From Sphaerotilus natans (GTDB taxonomy: Bacteria > Pseudomonadota > Gammaproteobacteria > Burkholderiales > Burkholderiaceae_C), in the NCBI RefSeq assembly GCF_900156335.1, contig NZ_FTMZ01000001.1, forward strand, positions 1 to 64,000: a DNA stretch of 64,000 nt, in the 5' to 3' direction. Numbering within the stretch: the stretch's first letter is position 1; every line of letters begins with the position of its first letter. A program made the position numbers and the translations under genes. Below the pieces are notes generated by a model that saw only the letters and a list, made by a program, of their open reading frames with translations, searched no databases and was not told where the DNA came from. Shown piece after piece: positions 2,342 to 26,951 of this stretch.

Positions 2342-2549
2342 CGTGCTTCCCTCGTGCGTGCGTACCTGTGGACGGGCGGATGCCCCCTCCAAGATTGCGC
2401 CGCGCCGATGTCGGGGTCAAGACAGCTTTTCGTGGCGGGTCGGCCACGGGGACTGCGGACGGGAAAGGACGTGCCGCGGCGGGCAAAACAGCTGCTGCGG
2501 TAGGATTGCCGGTCCTGCGCGCGCCTCGCGCTGCTGCCTTCGCGGCCCC

Positions 2550-5500: not shown

Positions 5501-6473
5501 GAAGCAGACCAGCGCGCCGCCGGCGACGGTGGGCGCCGCTCCGATCAAGGAGCAGGTGATCCACTTCATCAACAAGAAGATGCCCGGCGGCCTGCCGAAG
5601 AAGACCGCGCGCGCGTTGCTCGACATCGAGGACCGCGACTACGTGCCGATCATCCGCGACCCGAAGGCGACCACCGCCGAGACCGAGGCGGTGTTCTACT
5701 TCCCCGGCTGCGGCTCTGAGCGGCTGTTCAGCCAGGTCGGCTTGGCCACGCAGGCGATGCTCTGGCACGCGGGCGTGCAGACCGTGCTGCCGCCGGGCTA
5801 CCTGTGCTGCGGCTACCCGCAGCGCGGCTCGGGCCAGTTCGACAAGGCCGAGCAGATGATCACCGACAACCGGGTGCTGTTCCACCGGGTCGCCAACACG
5901 CTGAACTACCTCGACATCAAGACGGTGGTGGTCTCGTGCGGCACCTGCTATGACCAGCTCCAGGGCTACCAGTTCGACAAGATCTTCCCCGGCTGCCGCA
6001 TCATCGACATCCACGAATACCTGTTGGAAAAAGGCATCACGCTGCAGGGCAAAGGTAACTTCATGTACCACGATCCCTGCCACACGCCGATGAAGCTGCA
6101 GGATCCGATGAAGACGGTCAAGGCGCTGGTGGGCGACGGCGTGGTCAAGTCCGAGCGCTGCTGCGGCGAGTCGGGCACGCTGGGCGTGACCCGGCCCGAC
6201 ATCTCGACGCAGATCCGCTTCCGCAAGGAAGAGGAGATCCGCAAGGCCGAAGGCCAGCTGCGCGCGCAGGGCGCCCAGGGCGACCTGAAGATCCTGACCT
6301 CCTGCCCGAGCTGCCTGCAGGGTCTGTCGCGTTATGGCGACGATCTGCAGAACGGCCTGCTCGAGGCCGACTACATCGTCGTCGAGATGGCGCGCCAGAT
6401 CCTGGGCGAGAACTGGATGCCGGACTATGTGGCCCGGGCCAACGCCGGCGGCATCGAGCGCGTGCTGGTCTGA
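2550..6473 (+). CDS. Giant FAD-linked dehydrogenase with Fe-S and CCG domains (DUF3683 family)
   Basis: A 1307-residue multidomain oxidoreductase of the D-lactate dehydrogenase/glycolate oxidase class. In order: an N-terminal DUF3683 region (about 1-170), an FAD-binding type-4 domain with a [11 protein letters not shown]-type loop near 220, an FAD-oxidase C domain ending with GDGNVH and SGEHGIG (about 700-760), a two-cluster ferredoxin module (CLRCGKC...C near 840; CTVCHKC...CP near 902), and two cysteine-rich CCG domains (PGCG...CCGYP near 1051; DPCH...CCGES near 1171), the latter typical of heterodisulfide reductase/GlpC electron-transfer subunits. This fuses what GlcD, GlcE and GlcF do in separate chains. 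Proteins of this size and order are common in Burkholderiales. The true substrate is not known; a 2-hydroxyacid is inferred. The start is the ATG opening the conserved N-terminus. Confidence 0.88.
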
Positions 6474-8138: not shown

Positions 8139-9548
8139 ATGTTTCGAGTTTTCCAGCACCGATCGTCGGGAACGCACTTCGTCGAGCTGTTCGCTGACGG
8201 TCTGCTTTGCTTCATTGCCGCGCTGCTGTCGGCTGCCACGTTGGCCAGCCCGCTGCCCGGGGTCAGTCCGCTGACCCAGATCATCACGCCGACCATCCTG
8301 CTGGTCGCTTTTTCCTTTGCGCTGGTGATGGCGCTGCTTTATTCCTTCGTCGGACTCTATCGGCACCGCAATCTCGGGCTGGTTCCGATGGTCGTGCGCA
8401 TCGGTTTTGCGTTCCTGCTGGGTGGTTACATCACTTACCTGACGCTGAAATACATCAGCTATGACGGTTATGCCGGCAGCCTGGTCGGATATTCGCTGGT
8501 GTATCTGCTGGTCGGCCTGATGCTCTACCGCGGCGTGGCGTGGGTGGTCCGCCAGGCCGTGGGCACCCGCCGTGTGCTGATCGTCGGCACCGGCCCGGAT
8601 GCCCGTCAGGTGTGCACCGACCTGCGCGCCGGCGGCCAGTGGGCCGGCTATGACGTGGTCGGCTTCTACCCGACCACCGAACAGACCGACCGCGCCGCGC
8701 TGCGTGGTGCTGCCCATGTGTTCGACGCCCGCCAAAAGCTGGTCGACCTGGTGCGCGAGCACCGCATCAACGAGATCATCGTGGCGGTGCGCGAGCAGCG
8801 CGGCGGCGGCGTGCCGATGAACGATCTGCTCGAGTGCCGCATCGGCGGTGTGCCGATCATGGATCTGGCCTACTTCTACGAGCGCACCAAGGCCGAGGTG
8901 CCGGTCGACAGCCTGAAGGCCAGCTGGCTGGTCTATGGCGATGGCTTCGTTCAGGGCCATGCCCGCGAGCTCACCAAGCGCCTGTTCGACATCGTCAGCT
9001 CCTCGGTGCTGCTGCTCCTGGGCGCGCCGGTCATGCTGATGACCGCGCTGATGATCAAGCTCGACAGCCCCGGCCCGATCCTCTACAAGCAGGAGCGTGT
9101 CGGCCTGGGCGGCAAGGGCTTCATGTGCATCAAGTTCCGCAGCATGCGCACCGACGCCGAGAAGGATGGCGTGGCGCGCTGGGCTTCCAAGAACGACTCC
9201 CGCATCACCCGCGTCGGCGCCTTCATCCGCAAGACCCGCATCGACGAGCTGCCGCAGCTCTTCAGCGTGCTGCGCGGCGAGATGAGCATGGTGGGCCCGC
9301 GTCCGGAGCGCCCGTCCTTCGTCGCCCAGCTGCGCGAGCAGATTCCCTACTACGACCTGCGCCACACGGTGAAGCCGGGCCTGACCGGCTGGGCCCAGGT
9401 CCGCTATGCCTACGGCGCCTCGCTCGAGGACGCACGCAAGAAGCACCAGTTCGACCTGTACTACGTCAAGAACAACTCGCTGCTGCTGGATCTGCAGGTG
9501 CTGATCGAGACGGTGAGCGTGGTGCTGTTCCGCGAGGGCGCGCACTGA
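8139..9548 (+). CDS. XrtA/PEP-CTERM-type undecaprenyl-phosphate sugar phosphotransferase
   Basis: Initiating glycosyltransferase that moves a hexose-1-phosphate from a UDP-sugar to undecaprenyl phosphate at the inner membrane, starting exopolysaccharide repeat units. The 469 residues show several N-terminal membrane segments (about 15-130), a Rossmann-like middle domain with [10 protein letters not shown], one further membrane helix (about 285-305), and the C-terminal bacterial sugar transferase domain with KFRSMR, a TRIDELPQL motif and MVGPRPERP near 385. It best fits the TIGR03013 family (EpsB-like, tied to exosortase loci). An AAGGGGG about 10 bases upstream supports the ATG at 8139. It is separated by 296 bases from the next gene and so may form its own transcript. 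Confidence 0.9.
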
Positions 9549-9753: not shown

Positions 9754-9844
9754 TTGTAAGGAATTCTTGCGCTGCAGCGGTACGATCGGGTTGCGTGCCG
9801 CGCGGAGATCGCAGGGTGCTGGAATGATCAAGAGAGGATTTCGC

Positions 9845-10480
9845 ATGAGGATCGAAACGAGCCGTCTGTCGCGTGCGGCCGCTTTGCTGCTGGCGTCGGT
9901 GATGGCGGTCGGCACCCTGTCGGGCTGCGGCAGCATCGGCCGCTATCCGCCGGCCCCGAAGTCGGCCGAGACGCCGGATCACCGCTACAAGATCGGTCCG
10001 CTGGACACGCTCAACATCGTCGTCTGGCGCAATCCCGAGCTGTCGGCCACCGTCACGGTGCGCCCCGACGGCCGCATCTCGACGCCGCTGGTCGAGGATC
10101 TGCAAGCCTCGGGCAAGAACCCGTACGACCTGTCGCGCGAGATCGAGAAGGAGCTGAGCAAGGTCATCCGCGATCCGGTGGTCACGGTGGTGGTCGGCTC
10201 CTTCCAGGGCGTCTACAGCGAGCAGATCCGCATCGTCGGCGAGGCCGCGCGCCCGCAGAGCGTCGCCTTCCGCCAGAACATGAGCCTGCTCGACGTGATG
10301 ATCCAGTCCGGCGGCCTGACCGACTTCGCCGACGGCAATGCCGCGGTGCTGGTGCGCGGCGCCGAGGGCGGCAAGCAGTACAGCATCCGCCTGAAGGATC
10401 TGCTCAAGCGCGGCGACATCTCGGCCAACGTCGATGTGAAGCCCGGCGACATCATCATCGTGCCGCAGAGCTGGTTCTGA
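9845..10480 (+). CDS. Exopolysaccharide export lipoprotein (Wza/EpsE-like, PEP-CTERM type)
   Basis: Outer-membrane lipoprotein that forms the polysaccharide export channel with the chain-length protein downstream. The 211-residue precursor has a lipoprotein signal peptide with lipobox LSGC (Cys28), then a polysaccharide export (Poly_export) domain (YKIGPLDTLNIVVWRNPEL, then RPDGRISTPLVEDLQA) and SLBB-like beta-grasp repeats (IRIVGEAARPQ; GDIIIVPQSWF). It is shorter than E. coli Wza and fits the TIGR03027 family of exosortase loci. The ATG at 9845 has GAGAGG 7 bases upstream; the ATG at 9824 is an alternative with a poorer site. It is the first gene of a tight run that continues through the ATPase-epimerase fusion. 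Confidence 0.92.
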   Translation: MRIETSRLSRAAALLLASVMAVGTLSGCGSIGRYPPAPKSAETPDHRYKIGPLDTLNIVVWRNPELSATVTVRPDGRISTPLVEDLQASGKNPYDLSREIEKELSKVIRDPVVTVVVGSFQGVYSEQIRIVGEAARPQSVAFRQNMSLLDVMIQSGGLTDFADGNAAVLVRGAEGGKQYSIRLKDLLKRGDISANVDVKPGDIIIVPQSWF

Positions 10481-10577: not shown

Positions 10578-12119
10578 ATGAACGATTTCACCCGACAGGC
10601 TGCGATCCTGGCCGCGAGCGTCTGGCGACACCGCTGGACCGCCGTGGCCGTGGCATGGCTGGTGGCCATCCTGGGCGCGCTGGTGGTCATGGTGGTGCCC
10701 GAGCGCCGCGAGGCCCGCGCCAGCATCTATGTCGATACCCAGACGGTGCTGCGGCCGATGATGGTCGGCCTGGCCTTCCAGCCCGACATCGACCAGCAGG
10801 TCCGCATGCTGGGCCGCACGCTGATCTCGCGCCCGAACGTCGAGCGCCTGGTCAACAATCCCACGATCGGGCTCGAGAAGGTCGATCCGTCGCAGGTCGA
10901 CTCGCAGATCGAGACCCTGATGAAGACCATCAAGGTGGTCCAGACCGGGGGCAACAACCTCTACGCGATCAGCTACCGCGATGTCGATGGCGAGCGTGCC
11001 CGACGTCTGGTCGAGGGGCTGGTGGCGCTGTTCATGGAGAGCGGCGTCGACTCCAAGCGCAAGGACTCCGCCGAGGCCAGCCGCTTCATCGACGAGCAGA
11101 TCAAGGCCTACGAGTCCAAGCTGACCGAGGCCGAGAACCGCCTGAAGGAATTCAAGCTGAAGAACATGAACGTCGCCTCGACGCAGACGCAGGATTTCTT
11201 CGGCCGCATCCAGTCGATGACCGACGAGGTCAACCGCCTGAAGGTCCAGCTCAGCGCCGCCGAGCGCTCGCGTGACGCGATCCGGCGCGATCTGGAGTCC
11301 GAGGAACCGCAGCTGCCGATGGGCGCGGCCTCGGCCGTCTCGCTGACGCCGGACCTCGACGAGCGCATCCGCACCCTCAAGCGCCAGCTCGACGACATGG
11401 AGCGCCGCTTCACCGACAACCATCCGGACGTGCGCACCACCCGTCGCATGATCGGCGAGCTCGAGCAGAGCCGCCGCGACGAGCTGGCCCGCCTGCAGGC
11501 CGAGAATCCGAAGCGCCGTGCTGCCGCGACCAACCCGGTCTACCAGCGCCTGCGCAACAACCTGTCGGATGCCGAGGCCAGCGTGGCATCGCTGCGCGGT
11601 CAGCTCGAGGCCCAGGCCGCTCGCCTGGAGGAAGTCCGTTCGCAGGCCAACCAGGTCCCGCAGGCCGAGGCCGAGCTGGCCCAGCTCAACCGCGACTACG
11701 AGATCATGCGCCGCAACTACGATCAGCTGGTGCAGCGCCGCGAGGCCGCCTCGCTGGGCGTGAAGATCGACCAGACCTCGTCGATGGCCGACTTCCGCCT
11801 GATCGAGCCGCCGCGCCTCCTGCCTTCGCCGGTCTTTCCCGGCAAGCTGCAGATGGCCGCCGGCGTGATGCTGCTGGCCCTGCTGGCTGGCGGTGCGGTG
11901 GCCTATGCGATGACGCTGCTCAATCCGACCTTCTCGAGCGAGCGCGAGCTGCGCGAGTTCACCAAGCGTCCGGTGCTCGGCAGCCTGACCAAGATCGAGG
12001 ATCCGCGCGATCGTGACCTGCAGCGCCAGGACCGCATGAAGCTGGCCGGCGTGATGGGCCTGTTCCTGCTGGCCAATGTCGGCTGGATGGCCTGGATCTC
12101 GACACGCACCGCGAGCTGA
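10578..12119 (+). CDS. XrtA-type polysaccharide chain-length determinant (Wzz/GNVR)
   Basis: Inner-membrane polysaccharide co-polymerase that sets chain length and contacts the export channel. The 513 residues begin with a cytoplasmic stub and TM helix (about 17-40), a Wzz domain, and a long periplasmic coiled coil (about 170-400, including RRFTDNHPDVRTTRR). A second TM helix follows at about 420-445 after a proline-rich RLLPSPVFPGK, then a short cytoplasmic tail and a third hydrophobic helix (about 488-510). The last matches the TIGR03007 family of PEP-CTERM loci, which differs from classical Wzz. The kinase is encoded separately 11 bases downstream, as in proteobacterial split BY-kinase systems. 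Confidence 0.9.
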   Translation: MNDFTRQAAILAASVWRHRWTAVAVAWLVAILGALVVMVVPERREARASIYVDTQTVLRPMMVGLAFQPDIDQQVRMLGRTLISRPNVERLVNNPTIGLEKVDPSQVDSQIETLMKTIKVVQTGGNNLYAISYRDVDGERARRLVEGLVALFMESGVDSKRKDSAEASRFIDEQIKAYESKLTEAENRLKEFKLKNMNVASTQTQDFFGRIQSMTDEVNRLKVQLSAAERSRDAIRRDLESEEPQLPMGAASAVSLTPDLDERIRTLKRQLDDMERRFTDNHPDVRTTRRMIGELEQSRRDELARLQAENPKRRAAATNPVYQRLRNNLSDAEASVASLRGQLEAQAARLEEVRSQANQVPQAEAELAQLNRDYEIMRRNYDQLVQRREAASLGVKIDQTSSMADFRLIEPPRLLPSPVFPGKLQMAAGVMLLALLAGGAVAYAMTLLNPTFSSERELREFTKRPVLGSLTKIEDPRDRDLQRQDRMKLAGVMGLFLLANVGWMAWISTRTAS

Positions 12120-12130
12120 GGAGTCCCCAG

Positions 12131-13108
12131 ATGAACACGATCGAGCAGGCCGCCAAGCGGCTCGCTGAACTCAAGCGTGCCGGCTATGACGTGCCGGTGC
12201 CCGATGTCCCGGGCACGGCGGCGGCACAGCCGGCGCCTGCCGCGGCCGCTGTGCCGTCGGCAGCCCCGGTCGCGCCGGCTGCGGTGGCTCCGGTCCCCGC
12301 ACCCGCACCTGCACCGGTGCCCGCCGCCACGCTGCCGACGGTGCGCAGCGCCCAGGTCGAGATGCTGCCCACCGCCAGCCGGCGCTCCCGCGAGGTCCGC
12401 CTGGACCTGGAGCGGCTCGAGCGCGAAGGCTATCTGGTGCCCTCGCAGGCCCGCTCGCAGCTGGCCGAGCAGATGCGCATCATCAAGCGCCCGCTGCTGG
12501 CCAATGCCCGCGGCGAGTCGGCGCAGCAGATCTCGCGCGCCAACCTGATCCAGGTGGTCAGCGCGATGCCGGGCGAAGGCAAGACCTTCTTCGCGGTCAA
12601 CCTCGCGATGAGCATCGCGATGGAGGTCGACCTGTCGGTGCTGCTGGTCGATGCCGATGTGCTGCGCCCCTCGGTGCTGGCGCGCTGCGGCGTCGAGCCC
12701 TCGCGCGGCCTGATGGACGTGCTGAAGACGCCCTCGCTCGATCTGGCCGACGTGATGCTGCGCACCAATGTGCCCAAGCTCAGCCTGCTGCCGGCCGGCA
12801 CCGCCAACTCCCAGTCGACCGAGCTGCTGGCCAGCACGGCGATGGAGCGGCTGCTCGACGAGCTGGCCTCGCGCTTCCCGGACCGCATCATCGTCTTCGA
12901 TGCGCCGCCGCTGATCCCGACCACCGAGTCGCGTGTGCTGGCCTCGCGGGTCGGCCAGGTGGTGATGGTGGTCGAGGCCGGCAAGACCACCCATGCGCAG
13001 GTGACCCAGGCCTACGCCGCGGTCGAGCAATGCCCGGTGGTGCTTTCGGTGCTGAACCGCGCCAGCGGCAACTCGGGCGAGGCTTATGGCTACTACTACG
13101 CCTCGTGA
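12131..13108 (+). CDS. XrtA-associated tyrosine autokinase (BY-kinase)
   Basis: Cytoplasmic P-loop tyrosine kinase partnered with the chain-length protein; its phosphorylation cycle controls polymer export. The 325 residues have an Ala/Pro-rich low-complexity linker (about 30-75), Walker A MPGEGKTFF (K151), Walker A' LLVDADVLRP (about 170-180) and Walker B VFDAPPL (about 255-261), the order specific to BY-kinases. The C-terminus YGYYYAS supplies the short tyrosine cluster that is autophosphorylated. Best fit is TIGR03018. Its 3' end overlaps the next gene by 23 bases, so translation is likely coupled. Confidence 0.92.
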   Translation: MNTIEQAAKRLAELKRAGYDVPVPDVPGTAAAQPAPAAAAVPSAAPVAPAAVAPVPAPAPAPVPAATLPTVRSAQVEMLPTASRRSREVRLDLERLEREGYLVPSQARSQLAEQMRIIKRPLLANARGESAQQISRANLIQVVSAMPGEGKTFFAVNLAMSIAMEVDLSVLLVDADVLRPSVLARCGVEPSRGLMDVLKTPSLDLADVMLRTNVPKLSLLPAGTANSQSTELLASTAMERLLDELASRFPDRIIVFDAPPLIPTTESRVLASRVGQVVMVVEAGKTTHAQVTQAYAAVEQCPVVLSVLNRASGNSGEAYGYYYAS

Positions 13109-14798
13109 GCGGCTGACGCTCCAGCGACCGGCGCCGGTCGCGCTGCTGGCGACCGCGCTGCTGGGCGTGGCCCTGCCGCTGCAGGCCCAGCCGGTCGACG
13201 CGGCGGCGGCCGCCGCCGGGGGCGCTGGGGCGGCTCCGGTCTCGCGGGCCACCCAGATCACGACACCCGATCCGCTGCAGGGCCTGGCCGGGCCGGGCGC
13301 GGCGCCGATGCCGGCCGCGGCCTCGGCACCGGCGCGCGGCTGGCGCGTCGCGCCGGCGGTCAAGGCGGTGGTCAACGCGACCAACAATGTCGGGCTGCAG
13401 TCGAGCGACCGCGCCTACGGCATCGTCACGACGGTCACGCCGCAGCTGCAGCTGCTGGGCACCGGTCCGGACTACCGCCTGAACGGCAACCTCGCGGCCG
13501 ACATGGTCACCTATCTCGGCCGGATCGGCACCGACCGCATCTTCCCGCGCGGGCAGCTCACGCTGAACACCCGGCTGGTCGACCGGCTGTTCTTCGTCGA
13601 TGCCGAGCTGGGGGCCGACACCACCTCGTCGACGCCCTTCGACCTGATCGGCGACGGCACGAGCGTCTACACCGGCAGCAACACCGTCACCCGTCAGCGC
13701 CTGAGCCCCTACATCGACCGGGAGCTGTCGCCGACCTCGCGGCTGCTGGCGCGCAGCGACAACACCTGGTCGCAGGGCAACGGCACCGGCACGGCGGCGG
13801 CGCAAGGCACGGATGCCGACGCGCATGTGCGCACCGACACGGTCCGCTTCGACGAGCGCCCGCTGCCGGCGGGCATGCGGGCCGAATACAACCGCCAGGC
13901 CACCCGCTACCGTGACGGCGGCAGCGGTCTGGTGCTGGCGACCGGCCGGCTGTCGCTGCTGTACGCGCCCGATCCGGTGCTGACGCTCGGCCTGACCGGC
14001 GGCACGGACTCGGCCAACTACGGCACCAACCAGGTCAGCGAGACGCTGCGCGGCGTGGCGCTGCGCTGGGCGCCCTCTGAGCGCACCGTGTTCGACTCGC
14101 TGGTCGAGAAGCGCTTCTTCGGCACCGGCTGGAATGCCGCGCTGACCCATCGCTCGCCCTTCATGGCGCTGTCGGTGGCGGCGACGCGCCAGGCCTCGAC
14201 CTTCGCGTCGCGGCTGGGCACGCTGCAGGCCGGCGGCGATGTGGCCTCGATGATCGATGCGATGCTGCAGACGCGCATTCTCGACGAGGCCACCCGCCAG
14301 GCGGCGGTGCAGGACCTGATCGCCAAGCGCGGCCTGAGCAGCTCGCTGGGCGGACCGGTCGATCTGTACTCGCGCACGGTGCAGATCCAGCAGGGCCTGA
14401 ACGTGACGCTCGCGCTGGTGGGCGTGCGCCACACCGTGACGATGCGGATCTACCAGACGAAGCTCGAGGACTACCGCGGCGCCACCGAGGATGCCAACAG
14501 CGTGCTCGGCCTGGCCAGCGATTCCATCCAGCGCGGCATGACGCTCAGCCTGGGGCGGCGTCTCGATCAGGACACCACCGCCACCGTCACGCTGACCCGT
14601 GCACGCGCCGAGGGCATCGGCGCGAACGCCTCGCTGGGCACCCGCAGCGGAACCATCCTCCGGCTCGGTCTCTCTCATGCCCTGTCCCCTCGCACGACGG
14701 TCACCGGCGCACTGAGACACCAGAACGGCTCGACCTCCCTCGTCGGCAACGACGCCAGCGAGACCGGCCTGTCGGCCGGCGTGCTGCACCGCTTCTGA
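13086..14798 (+). CDS. PEP-CTERM-associated outer-membrane beta-barrel protein (TIGR03016-like)
   Basis: A 570-residue secreted protein: signal peptide about 1-35 (VALLATALLGVAL core, cut near LQAQ), a Pro/Ala-rich spacer, then repeated amphipathic beta strands with alternating hydrophobic and polar residues through to the C-terminal strand ending AGVLHRF, whose terminal aromatic residue is the usual outer-membrane barrel signal. Position between the tyrosine kinase and the ATPase is where the TIGR03016 barrel sits in XrtA loci. A role as outer-membrane secretin-like or modification porin for the polymer is inferred. The ATG lies inside the kinase gene (23-base overlap). Confidence 0.82.
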   Translation: MATTTPRERLTLQRPAPVALLATALLGVALPLQAQPVDAAAAAAGGAGAAPVSRATQITTPDPLQGLAGPGAAPMPAAASAPARGWRVAPAVKAVVNATNNVGLQSSDRAYGIVTTVTPQLQLLGTGPDYRLNGNLAADMVTYLGRIGTDRIFPRGQLTLNTRLVDRLFFVDAELGADTTSSTPFDLIGDGTSVYTGSNTVTRQRLSPYIDRELSPTSRLLARSDNTWSQGNGTGTAAAQGTDADAHVRTDTVRFDERPLPAGMRAEYNRQATRYRDGGSGLVLATGRLSLLYAPDPVLTLGLTGGTDSANYGTNQVSETLRGVALRWAPSERTVFDSLVEKRFFGTGWNAALTHRSPFMALSVAATRQASTFASRLGTLQAGGDVASMIDAMLQTRILDEATRQAAVQDLIAKRGLSSSLGGPVDLYSRTVQIQQGLNVTLALVGVRHTVTMRIYQTKLEDYRGATEDANSVLGLASDSIQRGMTLSLGRRLDQDTTATVTLTRARAEGIGANASLGTRSGTILRLGLSHALSPRTTVTGALRHQNGSTSLVGNDASETGLSAGVLHRF

Positions 14799-14823: not shown

Positions 14824-17235
14824 ATGTACGAATCCCACTTCGGTTTCAGCGGCCCGCCCTTCCAGCTCAACCCGGATCCGGCGTTCTACTTCAACAGCCG
14901 CGGCCACGGCCGCGCGCTGGCCTACCTGCAGTACGGCGTCGCGCAGGCCGAGGGCTTCGTCGTCATCACCGGCGAGATCGGTGCAGGCAAGACCACGCTG
15001 GTGCGCATGCTGCTCGACGGGCTGGACCGCCAGAAGGTGCTGCCGGCGCAGATCGTCAGCACCCAGCTGGAGTCGGGCGAGCTGCTGCAGTCGATCATTA
15101 CCGCCTTCGGCATTCCGTCGCAGGCCAGCAGCTCCAAGGCGCACCTGATCGCGACGCTGGAGGCCTTCCTGACCGCGCTGGCGGCGCAGGGGCGCCACGC
15201 GCTGCTGATCGTCGACGAGGCGCAGAACCTCGACCCGCGCGCGGTCGAGGAGCTGCGCATGCTGTCGAACTTCCAGCTCGGCAACCATGCGCTGCTGCAG
15301 AGCTTCCTGGTCGGCCAGCCGGAACTGCGCCGCCTGCTCGAGTCGCCGACGATGGAGCAGCTGCGCCAGCGCGTGACCGCGTCCTGCCACCTCGGGCCGC
15401 TGACGCTCGAGGAGGCGCGCGACTATGTCGAGCACCGGCTGCGCCATGTCGGCTGGGACGGCCGCCGGCCGGCCTTCGCCGACTCCGCCTTCGACAGCCT
15501 GTTCCGCTGGTCGGGCGGCGTGCCACGGCGCCTGAACCGCCTGGCCAACCGCTCGCTGCTGGCGGCCTTCCTCGACGGCGTCGACACCCTCGATGCCGCG
15601 CTGGTCGAGCGCACCGCCGCCGAGCTGCGCAGCGAGATCGGCGAGGGCGATCTGGCGCCGGTCGAGCCGCTGGCGGCTCCGTCGACGGTCGCCGCGCCTG
15701 CGCCGGCCCCCGTTCCGGTCGCCGAACCCGTGGCGCCGCCCCCGCCGGCGCCGGTGCTGCAGTTCATCGCGCCGCCGGCTCCGAATCCGACTCCGGTGCC
15801 GAGTCCAGTGCTCATGCCCGAGCCCGCACCGGCACCCGCCACGATCGAGCTCGACGAGCGCGCACGCGATTCGCTCGAGCGCGAGCCGCTGCCGCGCATG
15901 GCGCTGCCAGCGGCCCGTCTGCAGGCGCTCACCTCCGCGATCCGCGCCGCGCGCAGCCATGCCGACGGCCTGCTGGCGCGCCGTGCCAGCCGCGACGTCA
16001 TTCTCTGCCTGGCCGACAGCACCAGCGCCGCGCTGAAGTTCGCCGCGCTGGCCGAGGCGATGGCCGAGATCGGCCGTGCGCCGCGCATGGTGCTGGTCAG
16101 CCTGGGGCCGCTGCCGCTGGTCTGGCCGTGGCATGGCATGGGCCGGGTGCTGCCCGCGCTCGAGGTCGGCCTCGATCTCGAATGGGTGCCGGGCGACATC
16201 GAGCAGAGCCTGTCGCGCATGGTCGAGGGCCTGGGCCAGTTCATCGAGGAATTCGAGCCGATGGCGGTGCTGAGCCTGGGCTCGAGCGATGCGATGACCG
16301 CCTGCTGCCTGGCTGCGCATCAGCGCGGCCTACCGCTGCTGCGGCTGGAGGCGGGCATTCGCGCCACCGGCCCGCAGGCCTGGAACGCCACGATGATCGA
16401 GCAGGCATCCGACGTGCTGTTCGTGCCGGGCGAGGCCGCCCCGATGGGCCAGCTGCGCCGCCAGGGCCTGCAGCCGGACCGGCTGTTCTGCGTGCCCGAC
16501 CGGCTCGAGGCCGATGCGCTGGCGCGGCTGTGGCCGGAGGTGCCCGATCCGGCCGGCGCCTGCCTGCGCAACGGCTTGCCGATGTATTTCGGCCCGACCT
16601 GGTCGGTCAACGGTGTCGAGGGCGAGTCCTTCATGCTGGTGGCCGTCTCGCTGCTCGGTCATTCGGCCGAGGCGGTGCGGCGTCTGGTCGACGCGCTCCT
16701 GGGTGCGGGGGGGCCGATGCGCCAGCTGTGGCTGATCGATGCACCGACCCGCGAGGTGCTCCAGGCGTTGCTGGCCCAGGACGCAACGCTCGACGGTCCG
16801 GTGCTGCTGATGCCCGCCAGCGGACCGCGCCCGGCCGGCCTGCGCGAGCGCATCGATGCGGCGCGGCTGCTGTGCTGCGAGATCGGCTCGCTGCCCGAGC
16901 AGCTCGGCCTGCTGTGCGGCGCCAGCGCCACGCTGGTCGAGGAGAGCCATGGGCTGGCCGATGCGGCCGCGCAGCTGGGCATCACGCTGGCCGAGGTCGA
17001 TCTGTCGCGCGGCGTGCTGCTGGGACGGGTGCCGGACGGCCCCGCATCCGAGTCGCCGCTGGAGGCGGCTGCCTTGTCGGCCCTGCTTCAGCTGGACAGC
17101 CGCCGCGCGCAGCCGACCGGTCCGGTCGAGCCGGTGAGCGCCTCCGGCGCCTCGGTCGAGATCGCCAGCCACCTGCAGGCCTGGATCGACCGGCTGATGT
17201 CGGACCGCGGCGGTCCGCTGCAGCCGGCTGCCTGA
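14824..17235 (+). CDS. XrtA-associated ExeA-like ATPase fused to a degenerate WecB-like epimerase domain
   Basis: The 803-residue product has two unlike halves. Residues 1-275 match the TIGR03015 ATPase of XrtA loci: MYESHFGF start, Walker A GEIGAGKTT (50-58), Walker B LLIVDEAQNLD (about 126-136) and a sensor segment GGVPRRLNRLANR. A Pro/Ala-rich linker (about 280-340) follows. Residues about 345-760 resemble non-hydrolysing UDP-GlcNAc 2-epimerase (WecB): LGSSDAMTA where WecB has GDTTT, RLEAGIRA (E509) where WecB has VEAGLRT, a PQAWN segment where the family has a PEE-NR motif, and LVEESHGLADAA near the UDP-binding loop. The first catalytic Asp and second Glu appear replaced. In many XrtA loci a separate wecB-type gene lies near this ATPase, so the fusion joins neighbours. 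Activity of the second half is doubtful; a UDP-sugar sensing role is speculation. No frameshift is visible. Confidence 0.78.
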   Translation: MYESHFGFSGPPFQLNPDPAFYFNSRGHGRALAYLQYGVAQAEGFVVITGEIGAGKTTLVRMLLDGLDRQKVLPAQIVSTQLESGELLQSIITAFGIPSQASSSKAHLIATLEAFLTALAAQGRHALLIVDEAQNLDPRAVEELRMLSNFQLGNHALLQSFLVGQPELRRLLESPTMEQLRQRVTASCHLGPLTLEEARDYVEHRLRHVGWDGRRPAFADSAFDSLFRWSGGVPRRLNRLANRSLLAAFLDGVDTLDAALVERTAAELRSEIGEGDLAPVEPLAAPSTVAAPAPAPVPVAEPVAPPPPAPVLQFIAPPAPNPTPVPSPVLMPEPAPAPATIELDERARDSLEREPLPRMALPAARLQALTSAIRAARSHADGLLARRASRDVILCLADSTSAALKFAALAEAMAEIGRAPRMVLVSLGPLPLVWPWHGMGRVLPALEVGLDLEWVPGDIEQSLSRMVEGLGQFIEEFEPMAVLSLGSSDAMTACCLAAHQRGLPLLRLEAGIRATGPQAWNATMIEQASDVLFVPGEAAPMGQLRRQGLQPDRLFCVPDRLEADALARLWPEVPDPAGACLRNGLPMYFGPTWSVNGVEGESFMLVAVSLLGHSAEAVRRLVDALLGAGGPMRQLWLIDAPTREVLQALLAQDATLDGPVLLMPASGPRPAGLRERIDAARLLCCEIGSLPEQLGLLCGASATLVEESHGLADAAAQLGITLAEVDLSRGVLLGRVPDGPASESPLEAAALSALLQLDSRRAQPTGPVEPVSASGASVEIASHLQAWIDRLMSDRGGPLQPAA

Positions 17236-19953: not shown

Positions 19954-20589
19954 TCAGCCGCCTTCGGCCGGCGTCGGAGCGGCTGGCGGCTTGGGCGGGC
20001 GCGGCGGCTTCGGCCGCTGCGGGCCGGCGTGCAGCAGCGCGGTGGCCTTGGGCATGTCGCCGGCCAGCAGCAGGTCGAGTGCCTCCATCGAGCGGTCGAT
20101 GCAGCCCTCGATCAGCTCGCGCTCCGACGCCGGCGGCTTGCGCAGCACATAGCCCGCCACCTCAGCGCGGTCGCCCGGATGCCCGACCCCGAGGCGCAGC
20201 CGCCAGAAAGCCGGCGAGCCGAGCTGGGCCTGGATGTCCTTCAGGCCGTTGTGGCCGGCGGCGCTGCCGCCCTGCTTGAGCTTCATCTGGCCGGGCAGCA
20301 CGTCGAGCTCGTCGTGCACCACCAGGATCTCCTCCGGCGCGATGCGGAAGAAGCGCGCCAGCGGTGCGACCGACTTGCCCGACAGGTTCATGTAGGTCTG
20401 CGGCTCGATCAGCCAGATCGGGCCGGCCGGGTGGTTCACCCGCGCGACCAGGCCGTGGTAGGCCTTGTCGGCGCTCAGGTGCGCGCCCAGGCGCCGCGCG
20501 ACGGCGTCGATCCACCAGAAGCCCGCGTTGTGGCGGGTCGCCTCGTATTCGGGGCCCGGATTGCCCAGGCCGACCAGCAGTCGGATCAT
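19954..20589 (-). CDS. pth: Peptidyl-tRNA hydrolase
   Basis: Recycles tRNA by cleaving peptidyl-tRNA released from stalled ribosomes. The 211 residues contain [18 protein letters not shown] with catalytic His20, QTYMNLSG, the HDELDVLPG Asp motif and [14 protein letters not shown] Pro/Lys-rich tail of about 20 residues at the C-terminus goes beyond E. coli Pth and is common in betaproteobacteria. The ATG at 20589 starts the conserved MIRLLVGLG. It follows rplY on the same strand with a terminator between them, the usual prs-rplY-pth order. Confidence 0.96.
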
Positions 20590-20620
20590 GATGTTGTTCT
20601 TCCCACGCAACTTCCCACGC

Positions 20621-20645
20621 AAAAAAGCCCCGCAGGGCGGGGCTT
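20621..20645 (-). terminator. Rho-independent terminator of rplY
   Basis: Read on the minus strand: AAGCCCCGC, 3-base loop, GCGGGGCTT, then TTTT. It lies 35 bases after the rplY stop and 32 before the pth start, so pth must have its own promoter or depend on read-through. Confidence 0.85.
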
Positions 20646-20679
20646 CGTGTCGGAGCAACGGCAGGTTGCCAGGCAGGAA

Positions 20680-21303
20680 TTACTTCTTGCCCTTGCCCTT
20701 CTTGCCCTTGTCGGCGGCCGGAGCGGCGGCGACGACGATGACTTCCTCGACGATCTCCACCGGGGTGGCGATGACCGGGTTCTTGCGGCCGTGCGTACGG
20801 ACCTTGATGCTCGGGTCGAGCACCAGATCGTCGACGTGCAGCGACTTGCCCTTGACCATGCCCTTCAGGTCGACCGTCAGGAATTCCGGCAGCTTCTCGG
20901 CCAGGCACTCGATGTCCAGCTCGGCCACGACGTGGTTGATCGTGCACTTCTCGAGCTTGACGGCTTGCGATTCGGCTTCGTTGATGAAGTGCAGCGGCAC
21001 GCGCTTGCGGATGCGGGTGGTCGAGTCCACGCGCTGGAAGTCCACGTGCAGCACCAGCGGCTTGTACGGGTGCATCTGCAGGTCGCGCAGCACGACCTTG
21101 GTGGTCTCGCCGCCCAGTTCCATCTCGAGGACGGAGCAGTGGAAGGCTTCCTTCTTCAGCGCGTGGTACAGCGCGTTGTGGTCCAGCTCGATCTGAGCGG
21201 CATCCTTGACGCCGTAGACGATGCCCGGAACCTTGCCGGCATTACGCAGGCGGCGGCTCGCTCCGGTCCCCTGCACTTCGCGCGAGAATGCGACGAATTT
21301 CAT
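20680..21303 (-). CDS. rplY: 50S ribosomal protein L25 (general stress protein Ctc type)
   Basis: 5S rRNA-binding protein of the large subunit. The 207 residues have the L25 domain (about 1-95: [24 protein letters not shown]) plus the C-terminal Ctc/TL5 beta domain (about 100-190) and a Lys-rich tail (GKKGKGKK). E. coli L25 lacks the second domain; the long form is normal in betaproteobacteria. It stands 58 bases after prs on the same strand and ends in a clear terminator. Confidence 0.96.
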
Positions 21304-21361
21304 GTGATTTCTCCAGAAAAAGGAAGGGCGCCCGCGACCAGGTCGCCCCGGGTGAGACGGA

Positions 21362-22324
21362 TCAGAAGTTGTTGTTCTGTTCCGCGAAAAGATCGGTCAC
21401 CGAGGCGCCGTCCGAGATGCGGCGGATCGTCTCGGCGAACAGGAAGGCCACCGACAGCTGGCGGATCTTCTTGCACTCGCGCGCCGGGCCTTGCAGCGGA
21501 ATGGTGTTGGTGATCACCACTTCGTCCAGCTTGGAGCCGGCGATGCGCTCGACCGCCGGACCCGACAGGATCGGGTGCGTGCAGTAGGCGTAGACGCTGC
21601 GGGCGCCGCGGTCCTTCAGGACCTCGGCCGCCTTCACCAGCGTGCCGGCGGTGTCGATCATGTCGTCCATGATCACGCAGTTGCGCTTGTCGATGTCGCC
21701 GATGACGTGCATCACTTCGGAGACATTCGCCTTCGGGCGGCGCTTGTCGATGATGGCCAGGTCGCAGCCGAGCTGCTTGGCCAGCGCACGGGCACGCACC
21801 ACGCCGCCGACGTCAGGCGAGACGACCACGAGGTTCTCGTAGTCCTTGCCCTTCAGGTCGCTCAGCAGCATCGGCGAGGCGTAGATGTTGTCGACCGGGA
21901 TGTCGAAGAAGCCCTGGATCTGGTCGGCGTGCAGATCCATCGTCAGCACGCGGTTGACGCCGGCCGCTTCCAGCATGTTGGCGACGACCTTGGCGCTGAT
22001 CGGCACGCGGGTCGAGCGCGGGCGGCGATCCTGACGGGCATAGCCGTAGTAGGGAATGACCGCGGTGATGCGACGGGCCGAGGCGCGCTTGAGCGCATCG
22101 ACCATCAGCAGCAGCTCCATCAGATGCTCGTTGGTCGGCGCGCAGGTCGGCTGGACGATGAAGACGTCGCGGGCGCGGACGTTCTGCTGGATCTCGACGG
22201 TGACTTCGCCATCGGAGAAGTGGCCGACGGCGGCCTTGCCGAGTTCGAGGCCCAGATCGGCGGCGATCTCGCGGGCCAGGGCCGGGTTGGCATTGCCAGT
22301 GAAGAGAAGGGTGTCGGAGAGCAT
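21362..22324 (-). CDS. prs: Ribose-phosphate pyrophosphokinase (PRPP synthase)
   Basis: Makes PRPP from ribose-5-phosphate and ATP for nucleotide, histidine and tryptophan synthesis. The 320-residue length matches class I enzymes. Motifs: [10 protein letters not shown], the flexible-loop/ATP segment [21 protein letters not shown], and the PRPP-binding [13 protein letters not shown] started at the ATG at 22324 ([14 protein letters not shown]), the family-typical N-terminus. It lies directly downstream of tRNA-Gln, with a terminator between them. Confidence 0.97.
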
Positions 22325-22362
22325 GTGCGTGCTGCCCGCAGGGCGCGGACTTTTCAGGCCAT

Positions 22363-22402
22363 CAAGAAACAAGCGCCTCGCCGTGTGACCGGCAGGCGCT
22401 TG
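22363..22402 (-). terminator. Terminator after tRNA-Gln
   Basis: On the minus strand a perfect 9-bp stem CAAGCGCCT/AGGCGCTTG (inner GCCG/CGGC pairing extends it) is followed by TTTCTTG. It lies 12 bases past the tRNA 3' end and 39 before prs. Confidence 0.65.
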
Positions 22403-22414
22403 ATGTGGATGGTT

Positions 22415-22491
22415 TGGCAGGGGAGGAAGGACTCGAACCCTCGCATGTCGGAATCAAAATCCGATGCCTTGACCAACTTGGCGACTCCCCT
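22415..22491 (-). tRNA. tRNA-Gln (UUG anticodon)
   Basis: A 77-nt cloverleaf on the minus strand: acceptor AGGGGAG/CTCCCCT, anticodon stem CGGAT/ATCCG-type with loop containing TTG, T arm with GGTTCGAGTCC, discriminator G and encoded CCA. The UUG anticodon reads CAA/CAG glutamine. It stands 43 bases after ispE and before prs, the usual position in betaproteobacteria. Confidence 0.96.
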
Positions 22492-22534
22492 ACACTGGAC
22501 TCGTCTGTCGACGCGCCCGAAAACTCTGTGCTTT

Positions 22535-23425
22535 TCAGTCTCTCACCCAATGCTGCATCGGATGAATTTCCAGACTTCTGCACGTTCTCGCTATCCAGGA
22601 TTCATTCGGTGTCGCCAAACTCCGAAGAATGGTCTCTGTCAGCTCGCCGTGCCTTGCACTGCATTCTCTCAGGATTTCTGGATACTGCGCAAATACTGCG
22701 CTTCCTGATCCGCTCATCCTGCTGAGCCCTAAATTCTGCTTCAGAATTTTTAGTCCGTCAACTACTTGCTTGCTGTACGCTTCGGCGCCGGCTTGCAGAT
22801 CGTTTTTCCCGAACTCGGACTCTGCGAGAAAGACTGCTATTGTGGCGGGTTTCGTGTCCCTGCGCAAGAGGGGGCTCGAAAAAATCGCGGCGGTGGGAAT
22901 GGCCACCGGGGGTTTGAGCACCAGATAGCTGGCCGGCGGCAGCGCGATCGGGGTCAGGATCTCGCCGATGCCCTCGACCCAGGCGTCGCGCCCGCCGATG
23001 AAGAAGGGCACGTCGGCGCCCAGTTTGACGCCCAGCTCCAGCAGCGCGCGGCGGTCCAGTCCCAGATTCCACAGCCGGTTCAGGCCGAGCAGCACGGTGG
23101 CCGCATCGGAGCTGCCGCCGCCCAGGCCGGCGCCCCAGGGCACCTGCTTGTCGATCGCGATGTGCACGCCCTCGCGCGTGCCGGTGGCCTGCTGCAGCAG
23201 ACGTGCCGCGCGGGTGCACAGATCGTCCTCGGGCAGGGCCGGGCCGAGATCCTCGCGGCTGACGACGCCATCGGAGCGCCGCTCCAGATGCAGGGTGTCG
23301 CACCAGTCGATCAGCCGGAACACCGACTGCAGCAGGTGATAGCCGTCGGCGCGTCGACCGATGACATGAAGAAAGAGATTGAGCTTGGCCGGGGCCGGCA
23401 GGTCGTACAGGGCGGACAGGGACAT
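22535..23425 (-). CDS. ispE: 4-diphosphocytidyl-2-C-methyl-D-erythritol kinase IspE
   Basis: GHMP-family kinase of the non-mevalonate isoprenoid pathway. The 296 residues hold catalytic Lys14 in PAPAKLNLFLH, the ATP loop WGAGLGGGSSDAAT (about 99-112), and the third motif SGSGSAVFA. I started at the ATG at 23425; a TTG at 23440 would add five residues. The last roughly 115 codons (22535 to about 22885) differ sharply from the rest: low GC and many TTA, ATA, AGA and AGG codons almost unused elsewhere in the window, with an abrupt boundary near 22885. The protein remains complete, so this looks like a recombinant gene rather than a pseudogene. It sits between lolB and tRNA-Gln. Confidence 0.93.
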   Translation of the reverse strand: MSLSALYDLPAPAKLNLFLHVIGRRADGYHLLQSVFRLIDWCDTLHLERRSDGVVSREDLGPALPEDDLCTRAARLLQQATGTREGVHIAIDKQVPWGAGLGGGSSDAATVLLGLNRLWNLGLDRRALLELGVKLGADVPFFIGGRDAWVEGIGEILTPIALPPASYLVLKPPVAIPTAAIFSSPLLRRDTKPATIAVFLAESEFGKNDLQAGAEAYSKQVVDGLKILKQNLGLSRMSGSGSAVFAQYPEILRECSARHGELTETILRSLATPNESWIARTCRSLEIHPMQHWVRD

Positions 23426-23474
23426 GCGCGCGATGGGCAAGGAAGAAAGTGCAGACGGGGTCCGAGCGATCCGC

Positions 23475-24023
23475 TCAGGACGGCGTGTCGAGGCGGATCC
23501 GCACGGTCAGCGCCGGCTCGGGCAGGCGTCGCTCGGCCACCAGCAGACCGTCGGCCAGCCGGCCGGTGCTCACCTTCCAGCCGAGCTGGCGAAAGCCCGG
23601 ACCGTCGGCCTCGGCCAGCGGCCGGCTGGCTTCGTCCGGCCAGGGGCGGCCTTCGAGCCAGTCGAACAGCGCGGCCAGCGGGAGCGCTTCGCCGACCAGC
23701 GCCTCCATCATCGTGTCGAGATGGTCGAAGTGCTGGGTCTGTGCGCCGCTGTCGAGCTGCACCTCGCCGGGGCGCCACTGCGCCCGGCCCAGCGGCAGGC
23801 CGATCGGGCTGAACAGCGTCAGCTGGCCCTGCGCGGCCGAGCCTTCGAGCTCGAAGGCGGCGCTGAACGAGCGTGCGCTGTCGCCCGCCACCTGGACGGC
23901 GAGCCGACCGACCCGCGCTCGACCGGCCTCGCCAGACAGGGGCGCGGGCGGCTGCGTGGTCGCGCAGCCGCCGAGCAGTCCGGCGCCAGCCAGCACCAGC
24001 GCCACGGCATGACGACGCCTCAC
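23475..24023 (-). CDS. lolB: Outer-membrane lipoprotein LolB
   Basis: Accepts lipoproteins from LolA and inserts them in the outer membrane. The 182-residue precursor begins with a lipoprotein signal (lipobox LGGC, Cys20), then the LolB beta-sheet domain (GRLAVQV, FELEGSAAQGQLTLFSPIG, a hydrophobic hook region PIGLPLG, then WLEGRPWP). The start is GTG at 24023, overlapping the stop of the upstream TPR gene by four bases (GTGA), so translation is coupled. Order TPR-lolB-ispE-tRNA-Gln-prs is standard for the group. Confidence 0.93.
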   Translation of the reverse strand: MRRRHAVALVLAGAGLLGGCATTQPPAPLSGEAGRARVGRLAVQVAGDSARSFSAAFELEGSAAQGQLTLFSPIGLPLGRAQWRPGEVQLDSGAQTQHFDHLDTMMEALVGEALPLAALFDWLEGRPWPDEASRPLAEADGPGFRQLGWKVSTGRLADGLLVAERRLPEPALTVRIRLDTPS

Positions 24024-25939
24024 GGCCGCACCTTCAGCCGGCGCAGCGTTTCCTGCAGCACCTCGTTGTCGGCGTCGCGGGCCAGCGATTCGCGCCAGAT
24101 GCGGCGAGCCTCCTCCTGGCGCCCCAGCGCCCAGAGCACTTCGCCCAGATGCGCGCCGATCTCGGTGTCGGGGCGGCGCTGGTAGGCCTCGCGCAGCAGG
24201 CGTTCGGCTTCCTCGCGGCGGCCCAGGCGGAATTCGACCCAGCCGAGGCTGTCGGTGATGTAGGGATCGCCGGGCGCCATCTCCAGGGCCCGGCCGATCA
24301 GCTCGCGGGCCTCGGTCAGGCGCAGGTTGCGCTCGGCCAGGCTGTAGCCCAGTGCGTTGAAGGCGTGCTGCTGGTCCGGCTTGAGGACCATGACGCGGCG
24401 CAGCAGCTGCTCCATCTCCTCATGGCGGCCGAGCTTCTCGGCCAGCAGCGCCTGCTCGTAGAGCAGTTCGGTGTCATCGGCGAAGCGCTGGCTGGCCTCG
24501 GCCAGCAGCTGGTAGGCAGCCGGCCACTGGCGTGCGTCGCGCAGCAGCTGCGCCTCGGTCATCACCCGGGCGCGCTGTTCCTCGGCGCTGCCCTGAGGCA
24601 GGCGCTGCAGCAGCGCGCGGGCCTCGGCGATGCGGCCCTGGCGCATCAGCAGCGAGGCGCGTCGCGTCAGCACGGTGACCGAGTCCTGGTCGGCCAGGCG
24701 CTCCAGCCAGGCCTGGGCACCGGCATAGTCGCGCAGCTGCTCGCTGGCCTGGGCGAGCATCAGATGGGCCTGGGCACGCTCTTGGACGCGGTTGCGCTGG
24801 GCCGCCTGGGTGATCGGGTCGGGCAGATCCTCGTCGCTGTCCTCGACCGCATCGGCCGGAGCCGCCGCAGTGGTGGCTTCGGTGATCTGCAGATGGCGCA
24901 GCAGGGCCTCGCGCGCAGCGCGAGGCTCGCCGCTCTCGAGCTCGAGCGCGCCCTGCAGCAGCCAGGCGCCGGCGTCGTCGGGTGTCTCGCCGGTCAGGCG
25001 ACGCGATTCGGCCAGCGCCTCGCCGTAGCGCTGGGCGGTCGACAGGCGTCGCACATAGGCGGCGCGCACGCTGGCGGCGGGTGCGGCCGAAGCCAGATGT
25101 GCGCGCACCAGCGCCTCGGCCTGCGGCTGGTCCTTCATCAGCTCGACGGCCAGCAGCGCGGCGGCCGGATCGGCCGGATCGCGCTGCACCGCCTTCGTGA
25201 CGAACTCGAGGCTGCGGCTGCGATCGCCAGCGGTCAGCCAGCCGGCGGCGGTGGCGTTCAGCGCGCTGGCGGTGGTGGCGGCGCGCTGGCGCCACGGCGC
25301 CAGCGTCTCCTCGAGCATGCGCGCGGTGGCCTGCGGCTGCTCGCCGCCGAGCACCAGCCGGGGCAGGCTGCTGATCGCCGCCGGCCGCGCCGGCTCGGAC
25401 GTCAGCTCGATGAAGGCCTCGAGCGCGCGGCGCGCCTCGGTCTGTCGACCCAGCGCGACCAGCATCTGCGTCTCGATCTCGGCCGCCTGGCGCGACTGCG
25501 GCAGGGCCTGGCGCCATTGCTTGAGCGCGGCGGCCGCCTGCTCGCCAGCGCGTGCGCCCAGCGCGATGTCGACCGCGCGGCGGAACAGCGCCTCGTCGCG
25601 GCTGCGCCGGGCCGCCTCCATCATGACCTGGTAGGCCAGCGGGGCGTTGCCGTCGCGCAGTTCCAGCTCGCTGACCAGCAGCTGGTAGAAGAGCACGCCG
25701 TCCATCGCGGACCGCACCGGGGCTGGCGCGGCGACGGCGCTTGCCGCTGCGGGGGCCGCATTGTCTTGCGCCAGGGCCTGCGGCGTCAGTCCGGTCAGAC
25801 CGAGCGTGCCCAGCAGCAGCGCCGCCGCCGACAAGCGCAGGCGGTGGCCCGCGCGGCTGGCGGGTGCCGGAGTCGGCGGAAGGACGGGGGGCGGCGCAGG
25901 CAGCAGGGGCATCGAGGCGGACTCCATGTTCAGGGCCAT
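24020..25939 (-). CDS. Exported tetratricopeptide-repeat protein (lolB neighbour)
   Basis: A 639-residue TPR protein encoded just before lolB in many betaproteobacteria. A signal peptide follows a Pro-rich start ([19 protein letters not shown] core, cut after QALAQ). The mature part is an Ala/Arg/Glu-rich helical solenoid with TPR-like pairs throughout; the clearest repeats are near the C-terminus ([37 protein letters not shown]). Function is unknown; a role in cell-envelope assembly is inferred from location and the fixed pairing with lolB. Starts at 25939, 25927 and 25912 are all possible; the longest is given. It diverges from mutM across 49 bases. Confidence 0.85.
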
Positions 25940-25975
25940 TCTAGGCCGCGGCGTTTGCCGGCCCGGCGACGCTTC

Positions 25976-25981
25976 GATAAT
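25976..25981 (+). promoter_or_regulatory. Candidate -10 element of mutM (GATAAT)
   Basis: GATAAT ends 7 bases before the mutM ATG at 25989, so transcription would begin at or next to the start codon. A TTTGCC -35-like hexamer lies 16 bases upstream. No ribosome site is visible before the ATG. Confidence 0.4.
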
Positions 25982-25988
25982 TCCGCGC

Positions 25989-26816: not shown

Positions 26817-26951
26817 TGACGTGATGACGTCGGGCCGTCGTGACGCCCTTGGCGTTCCGGGCACCGGATCCGCGAATTCCCTGAGCTACCATGCCTGACT
26901 GTCCGCGCCCGGCGCGGTCCCCCTTGTTCCAGTCCGTCCAGGCGCACCGCA

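Follow-up and report, generated by a model that had tools for sequence, protein, structure and literature searches.

Why does the ATPase of a polysaccharide export operon carry, within a single polypeptide, a second half that resembles a sugar-nucleotide epimerase deprived of its catalytic residues? The question arises at 14824-17235 (+ strand) in a stretch of 64,000 nucleotides from Sphaerotilus natans (contig NZ_FTMZ01000001.1, hereafter the window), where an original prediction described an ATPase of an XrtA-type locus fused to a degenerate uridine diphosphate (UDP)-N-acetylglucosamine 2-epimerase and proposed that the fusion coupled polymer export to sugar-nucleotide sensing. We confirmed that this ATPase-epimerase fusion is real and not a sequencing error. 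Sequence comparisons give good support to an ancestral joining, in the window's family, of a TIGR03015 ATPase to the wecB-type gene directly downstream. It is also well supported that the epimerase half was stripped of its catalytic residues, and in the window's genus of several UDP contacts as well, while its predicted fold and a set of new motifs remain under purifying selection. We infer, at roughly even odds (a probability of about 0.5), that this half now acts as a non-catalytic oligomerisation or docking module. The gene is laid out as follows:

14824..17235, + strand: fusion gene of 803 amino acids in one frame, with homologous single open reading frames (ORFs) in other genomes
14824..15636, + strand: TIGR03015 ExeA-like ATPase domain (348.3 bits), residues 1-271, with Walker A at 50-58 and DEAQN at 131-135
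15637..15996, + strand: Pro/Ala-rich linker, residues 272-391, in the place of the C-terminal heptad helix found in most unfused ATPases that neighbour a wecB gene
15997..17232, + strand: degenerate non-hydrolysing UDP-sugar 2-epimerase domain, residues 392-803 (~410 residues, the full-length enzyme domain itself ending at ~790), recognised by profiles, alignment and model

The ORF comprises 803 uninterrupted codons with zero internal stops. Its N-terminal half proved to be the complete ExeA-like ATPase that had been described: residues 1-271 scored 348.3 bits against TIGR03015 in a profile search, above the curated cut-off of 324.5, and both Walker A (GEIGAGKTT, at the predicted 50-58) and DEAQN at 131-135, taken as Walker B, are intact. 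Across 13 aligned fused proteins, G50, I52-T58 and D131-N135 are invariant and E51 is nearly so. The second half matched the Pfam family Epimerase_2 (PF02350) at residues 456-557 (E 1.9e-8; 34.0 bits, above the gathering score of 30.6) and scored 31.4 bits against TIGR00236, far under the equivalog cut-off of 210.15. Its best sequence match in the PDB was UDP-2,3-diacetamido-glucuronic acid 2-epimerase (E 5e-8), over a stretch similar to 456-557, the segment to which significant similarity of the window's own sequence to UDP-sugar 2-epimerases is limited; once homologues, fused and separate, are aligned with it, the domain runs collinear with the entire enzyme. The WecB-like character of this half was therefore upheld, and the motifs on which it had been recognised are all present: LGSSDAMTA at 485-493, PQAWN, and RLEAGIRA at 507-514, the last beginning at 507 and not, as first given, at 508. 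Elsewhere, the fused proteins of genome G017 retain a near-complete copy of the C-terminal WDG..RIA..L..WL motif of separate epimerases.

The original prediction had left open a sequencing error joining two genes. Its requested count of other fusions came from a one-genome-per-species scan, in which the best 80 of 355 confirmed stretches were retained as loci, and from a family-wide profile search with the fused domain. Three of these 80 loci carried single-ORF fusions, those of Rhizobacter sp. OV335, a Burkholderiaceae metagenome-assembled genome (MAG) and a Proteobacteria MAG. The family-wide search matched 82 of 399 genomes, ordinary epimerases among them; 17 of its 20 best loci were fusions (some genomes repeated), spanning genera g1, g6, g53, g222, g250, g270 and g278, and G725 (g53) is also fused. 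Within the window's genus the fused domain was found in 13/13 genomes examined, and the fusion is present in at least six genera of the family besides. Our set of 25 fused genomes comprises these 13 plus G017, G298, G725, G521, G678, G529, G686, G731, G788, G501, G597 and G473. Frames were intact in 12 of the 13 genus genomes; in G004 (L035:9026-11627) the frame is broken within a repetitive linker carrying long Ala-Pro and His-Gln type repeats, through either an assembly error or a real split. G017, of another genus, encodes two diverged fused copies (L044 and L045), one of them close to a contig end. The fused domain had zero matches in a plasmid collection searched for signs of plasmid spread. 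An assembly or sequencing error, for which nothing at the window speaks and for which the G004 break offers no precedent (it would split a gene, not join two), is ruled out by the identical single-ORF layout in genomes of several genera, and its probability is negligible; the frameshift-free fusion first described is thus borne out.

How such a gene could arise is suggested by the unfused relatives. BLAST comparisons showed the same upstream order in fused and unfused loci, namely export protein, chain-length determinant, tyrosine kinase, TIGR03016 protein and ATPase, with the exceptions that TIGR03016 was undetected in unfused L050 and that fused L038 and L045 are cut by contig ends; a TIGR03013 transferase was seen beside the operon in fused loci and in 0/6 unfused loci compared. 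An intact wecB-type gene lies directly behind the ATPase at 26 of the 80 scanned loci when measured to the first aligned epimerase residue (19 of 80 when measured to the frame start), in agreement with the expectation that the two genes are commonly close. The distance from the ATPase frame end was -18 to +47 nt at 25 of these loci and 185 nt at the other. In the remaining loci, wecB was further off (2), fused (3) or not seen (49, several owing to contig ends). Because the intact gene sits directly behind the unfused ATPase in so many relatives, a joining of adjacent genes is well supported. Gene order on the 3′ side is similar: the fusion is followed by a TIGR03006 deacetylase in Rhizobacter sp. 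OV335, and likewise in G521 and G678, and in unfused G049, G056, G023 and G328 the same deacetylase comes after the separate wecB.

The fusion, common to several genera, appears to have a single origin, which had gone unnoticed in the original prediction. Fused proteins formed one clade in ATPase trees (100/99 with 19 rows; 100/98 with 25 rows), and the epimerase tree also grouped the fused domains (94/96), subject to a long-branch warning, the deepest row, L056, having an end branch of 3.8. These trees are most simply read as the outcome of one fusion event. In L056 itself (Proteobacteria MAG ZJ4.bin40), the deepest-branching fused row, the linker spans ~14 residues and the epimerase domain has diverged strongly. 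Four fused genomes (G473, G501, G597 and G788) have a further epimerase gene (288-304 bits) at another place in the genome, which in G473 adjoins the deacetylase; the fused copy may therefore descend from a duplicated epimerase gene.

We next consider what became of the active site. The nearest solved structure is the Thermus UDP-2,3-diacetamido-glucuronic acid 2-epimerase (8sxv to 8syh), and ten positions were chosen, in Thermus numbering, from PMC10622841. According to that paper, Arg12 contacts uracil, Ser284 the phosphate and Glu290 hydroxyls, Lys17 and Glu120 touch the sugar 4'-OH, and the E. coli variants D95N, E117Q and E131Q were too weak for kinetic parameters; the Thermus and E. coli equivalents are Asp98/Asp95, Glu120/Glu117 and Glu132/Glu131. 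For MnaA of P. alvei, PMC11464976 reports a drastic loss in the E135A variant. Three of the corresponding positions in the window are:

16036..16038, + strand: Lys405, aligned with Thermus Lys17 and retained, as in 26/28 fused rows (role from PMC10622841)
16282..16284, + strand: Ser487, aligned at the catalytic-base Asp98 position
16348..16350, + strand: Glu509, aligned with Thermus Glu120 and retained, the E of RLEAG

Separate epimerases kept 10/10 of these residues in 30/30 compared, whereas Asp98, Glu132 and His208 were jointly kept in 0/28 fused rows, so the conservation check that had been called for sets the two groups apart. Among the 28 fused rows, in which the near-copies L052, L150 and L151 are counted three times, Lys17 was kept in 26, Glu290 in 14, Glu120 in 13 (with Asp in a further 8), Asp98 in 6, Ser284 in 5, Glu306 in 4, Arg12 in 3, His208 in 2 and Arg302 in 1; Glu132 was kept in 2, in a region aligned unsurely, where several rows differ between alignments. 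The window reads S, E, Q and S at Asp98, Glu120, Glu132 and His208. The claimed loss of catalytic Asp and Glu accordingly holds for Asp98 (now Ser) and Glu132 (now Gln) and fails for the other catalytic glutamate, Glu120, which is retained.

These residues bear directly on whether the domain is a ligand sensor, that is, a domain that no longer catalyses but has kept its binding of a UDP-sugar or some other nucleotide and gates the ATPase by opening or closing a two-lobed fold. The fold is intact by prediction, and the sugar 4'-OH contacts described in PMC10622841 are retained, with Lys17 in place and an acidic residue (Glu or Asp) at position 120 in most rows; in the window's genus, Lys17 and Glu120 are each kept in 12/13 rows, and outside it, Lys17 and Glu290 are each kept in 14/15 fused rows (three near-copies included). 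Against this, Arg12, Ser284 and Glu290 are each lost in 13/13 rows of the window's genus, and the loop that we equate with the allosteric-site loop carrying Gln42 and His43 of MnaA, residues described in PMC11464976, is rewritten. Because contacts to UDP are lost as well, the sugar-nucleotide sensing first proposed for the window's protein finds no support in its genus. Sensing is possible, and likelier in sister genera that keep both Glu290 and Lys17 than in the window's genus; as an account of the fused domain overall, we regard it as unlikely.

A domain that has lost its chemistry might simply be decaying, a passenger left by a read-through fusion, functionless and drifting. Divergence is indeed very fast: among pairs with 60-70% ATPase identity, mean identity was 65.1% for separate epimerases (186 pairs) against 23.9% for fused domains (59 pairs), and the ATPase was the better conserved half in 171/171 fused pairs versus 142/435 unfused pairs. 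Most catalytic residues are also gone. Nevertheless, zero stops occurred in the 12 intact genus frames, 77 columns were retained in at least 12 of the 13 genus rows, and the ratio of nonsynonymous to synonymous substitution rates (dN/dS) was below 1 for every pair and region computed. By Nei-Gojobori counting, which is rough for distant pairs, the eight genus pairs spanned dN/dS values of 0.06-0.26 in the ATPase and 0.17-0.72 in the linker, with 0.07-0.49 in the N half of the epimerase domain and 0.22-0.50 in its C half. The epimerase domain is therefore constrained, if loosely; the values below 1 in both epimerase halves rule out a drifting relic as the principal account, and we consider a functionless passenger very improbable.

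Constraint in the window's genus extends to residues that the separate enzymes lack, among them two motifs located by alignment:

16123..16131, + strand: Trp434-Pro435-Trp436, unchanged throughout the 13 genus rows; it falls in a loop just past the enzyme's HTGQH position
16594..16602, + strand: Pro591-Thr592-Trp593, an insertion missing from separate epimerases, with Pro591 in 13/13 and Trp593 in 12/13 genus rows

W434, P435, W436, P591, D639 and Q693 are invariant in the 13 genus rows, and at each the commonest letter of separate epimerases differs or is a gap. Such sites would be expected if the cleft had been rebuilt around the WPW and PTW motifs for a new activity or ligand, but they need not line the cleft, the whole domain evolves fast, and no catalytic pattern was recognised, so that a new activity or ligand of this kind appears highly improbable.

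We then examined whether the overall architecture of the enzyme is kept. A model built from an alignment that included separate epimerases reached a mean predicted local distance difference test score (pLDDT) of 79.4 and a predicted template-modelling score (pTM) of 0.82, and the 50 Foldseek matches listed for it were all UDP-sugar 2-epimerases or their kin (NeuC, CapG), with a best template-modelling (TM) score of 0.76 by target length. A second model, from four fused sequences only, was of low confidence (pLDDT 58.1, pTM 0.56) and retrieved the same kinds of protein among the 50 matches listed (best E 6.6e-12; TM 0.46-0.63 by target length), a result that is partly independent at most because Foldseek also scores amino-acid similarity. 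The predictions indicate that the two-lobed (GT-B-like) epimerase fold is kept in the window's domain, in line with the structural resemblance to WecB-type enzymes that had been anticipated.

What the added domain replaced may be seen at the C-termini of unfused ATPases. In most of those that neighbour a wecB gene, the chain finishes with a short RLxRLERS...LLQxLV-type helix. A loose form of this pattern was present in 53/84 unfused tails (all 30 aligned tails that neighbour a wecB gene, and 23/54 others) versus 1/27 fused linkers (L034; the window lacks it); searched anywhere after the ATPase, it occurred in 11/27 fused proteins, but by position solely that of L034 falls in the linker. The strict form was found in 44/84 unfused tails and 0/28 fused linkers, the loose form arose in 199/6000 and 512/10800 shuffled tails, and the median hydrophobic heptad contrast was 0.57 for unfused tails with a wecB neighbour versus 0.07 for fused linkers. 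The heptad helix is a feature proposed here, outside any published TIGR03015 definition, and to our knowledge its frequent occurrence (for example in L047 and L137) is not part of the family description. A check of eight unfused genomes, of which seven have long ATPase frames, gave no epimerase match within the ATPase frame; in the long frames, the extra length lies upstream.

The added domain also comes from an enzyme that presumably was dimeric, because the Thermus subunit interface is built of three helices, as described in PMC10622841; at interface position Leu107, 17 of 19 fused rows keep Leu and the other 2 have Met. It is because the domain is decayed yet constrained, of dimeric ancestry, and located where relatives commonly have a heptad helix that we favour an oligomerisation or docking module. 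In this scheme, an ancestral ATPase gene fused with its adjacent downstream wecB-type gene; the epimerase half then lost catalysis and, in the window's genus, several UDP contacts; and the fused domain would now serve as a non-catalytic C-terminal module that holds the ATPase in assembly with itself or with partners in the polymer-export machine, ATP hydrolysis remaining with the N-terminal domain, whose motifs are intact.

Several observations weigh against this module. The helix pattern was devised after viewing the tails, so its count is no independent test. It is absent from 31/54 unfused ATPases without a wecB neighbour, and outside the aligned set 5/97 genomes of the order with the ATPase (G098, G142, G100, G138 and G188) have ATPase frames that, at 280-286 codons, leave no room for the helix; G100 and G138 among them have wecB directly behind, and the tail in G100 is 12 residues long. 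Since such short-tailed ATPases exist, the helix is common but not obligatory. Interface positions other than Leu107 vary, Val110 being His, Arg, Ser, Asn or Gln in 19/19 fused rows. Finally, the retention of Lys17 together with Glu or Asp at position 120 could mean that a partial sugar pocket survives.

A role in controlling intact WecB by pairing with it was also considered. It cannot be general, because 9/25 fused genomes (G002, G003, G008, G725, G521, G678, G529, G686 and G731, the last 82% complete) have no TIGR00236 match over the cut-off.

The surrounding operon places the fusion among export genes, all identified by profiles over their cut-offs:

8139..9548, + strand: TIGR03013 initiating sugar transferase (EpsB_2)
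9767..10480, + strand: TIGR03027 polysaccharide export protein
10578..12119, + strand: TIGR03007 chain-length determinant
12131..13108, + strand: TIGR03018 tyrosine autokinase
13086..14798, + strand: TIGR03016 outer-membrane protein

With the fusion these form a six-gene operon flanked by ubiE and, past one ORF without a family match, rsmD. The label of an XrtA-type locus was half right: 5/5 XrtA/PEP-CTERM export genes beside the ATPase exceed their cut-offs, but exosortase A (TIGR03109) itself was found in 0/13 genus genomes (G005 being 83% and G007 68% complete). Exosortase A was not found in 22 of the 25 fused genomes; it occurred in three (G731, G788 and G597, all g250), on a contig other than that of the fusion, which in G731 and G788 says little on distance because both assemblies are very fragmented. 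By comparison, 40 of 41 unfused TIGR03015 genomes sampled, from about a hundred available, encode it. Some exosortase was present in 13/13 genus genomes, and in the five typed (G000, G003, G009, G010 and G012) it was XrtB, located elsewhere. In G000 this XrtB gene (C21:18598-19362, L132) lies on a contig different from the window's, and ten PEP-CTERM matches, at E up to 0.1, were seen genome-wide. The TIGR03006 deacetylase was found in 0/13 genus, 5/12 other fused and 6/6 unfused genomes. The fused genomes seem to descend from a single ancestor, so these exosortase and deacetylase associations count as one event and not many.

Further from the operon, the region 20029-29042 opens with four long + strand ORFs (20029-21513, 21491-22708, 22766-23812 and 23873-25996) that had no NCBIfam match at the thresholds used, one chance-level match excepted; 26952-29042, adjoining mutY, has a weak dynamin-like match. 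A separate 1376-aa ORF at 2343-6473 combines parts of a GlcD-like flavin adenine dinucleotide oxidase and an Fe-S oxidoreductase.

Set beside known systems, the protein resembles the TIGR03015 XrtA/PEP-CTERM ATPase in its N-terminal 271 residues and in its operon position, which is that of unfused relatives, and differs in carrying an epimerase domain instead of a short tail and in belonging to a genus in whose genomes XrtA was not found. It resembles the non-hydrolysing UDP-GlcNAc 2-epimerases (TIGR00236, PF02350) in its collinearity and predicted fold, and differs from them in having lost the catalytic base and most ligand contacts and in being fused to an ATPase. A functional parallel may be PrmE, the AAA+ ATPase of the promonan cluster of Sphingomonas LM7, which is likewise encoded among outer-membrane beta-barrel, Wza, Wzz and tyrosine-kinase genes and whose loss gives an exopolysaccharide-negative phenotype; an ATPase in such a place can therefore be needed for the polymer. 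The likeness is one of gene setting, and the available portion of the source mentions no epimerase fusion (PMC11340318).

Pseudoenzymes and gene fusions are known kinds of evolutionary product. The present combination of an ATPase with a dead epimerase was not found among the papers listed by searches of the open-access full-text literature. As a tentative and somewhat doubtful ordering, an enzyme may have turned into a machine part in stages, from a separate, fully equipped epimerase, through the fused, non-catalytic and perhaps nucleotide-binding form of the sister genera, to the form in the window's genus, which lacks Glu290, carries new invariant motifs and would serve as an oligomerisation or docking module replacing the ATPase tail, in a lineage whose operon has parted from exosortase A. 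The lineages would then offer living intermediates for studying how an enzyme becomes a non-catalytic part. The locus also carries a warning for annotation: the gene could be named after either half, and neither an XrtA nor an epimerase label predicts the biology here. It represents a natural domain swap, with a dead epimerase where relatives have a helix, which could reveal the purpose of the ATPase C-terminus, and in which a metabolic enzyme may have become a structural part of an export machine.

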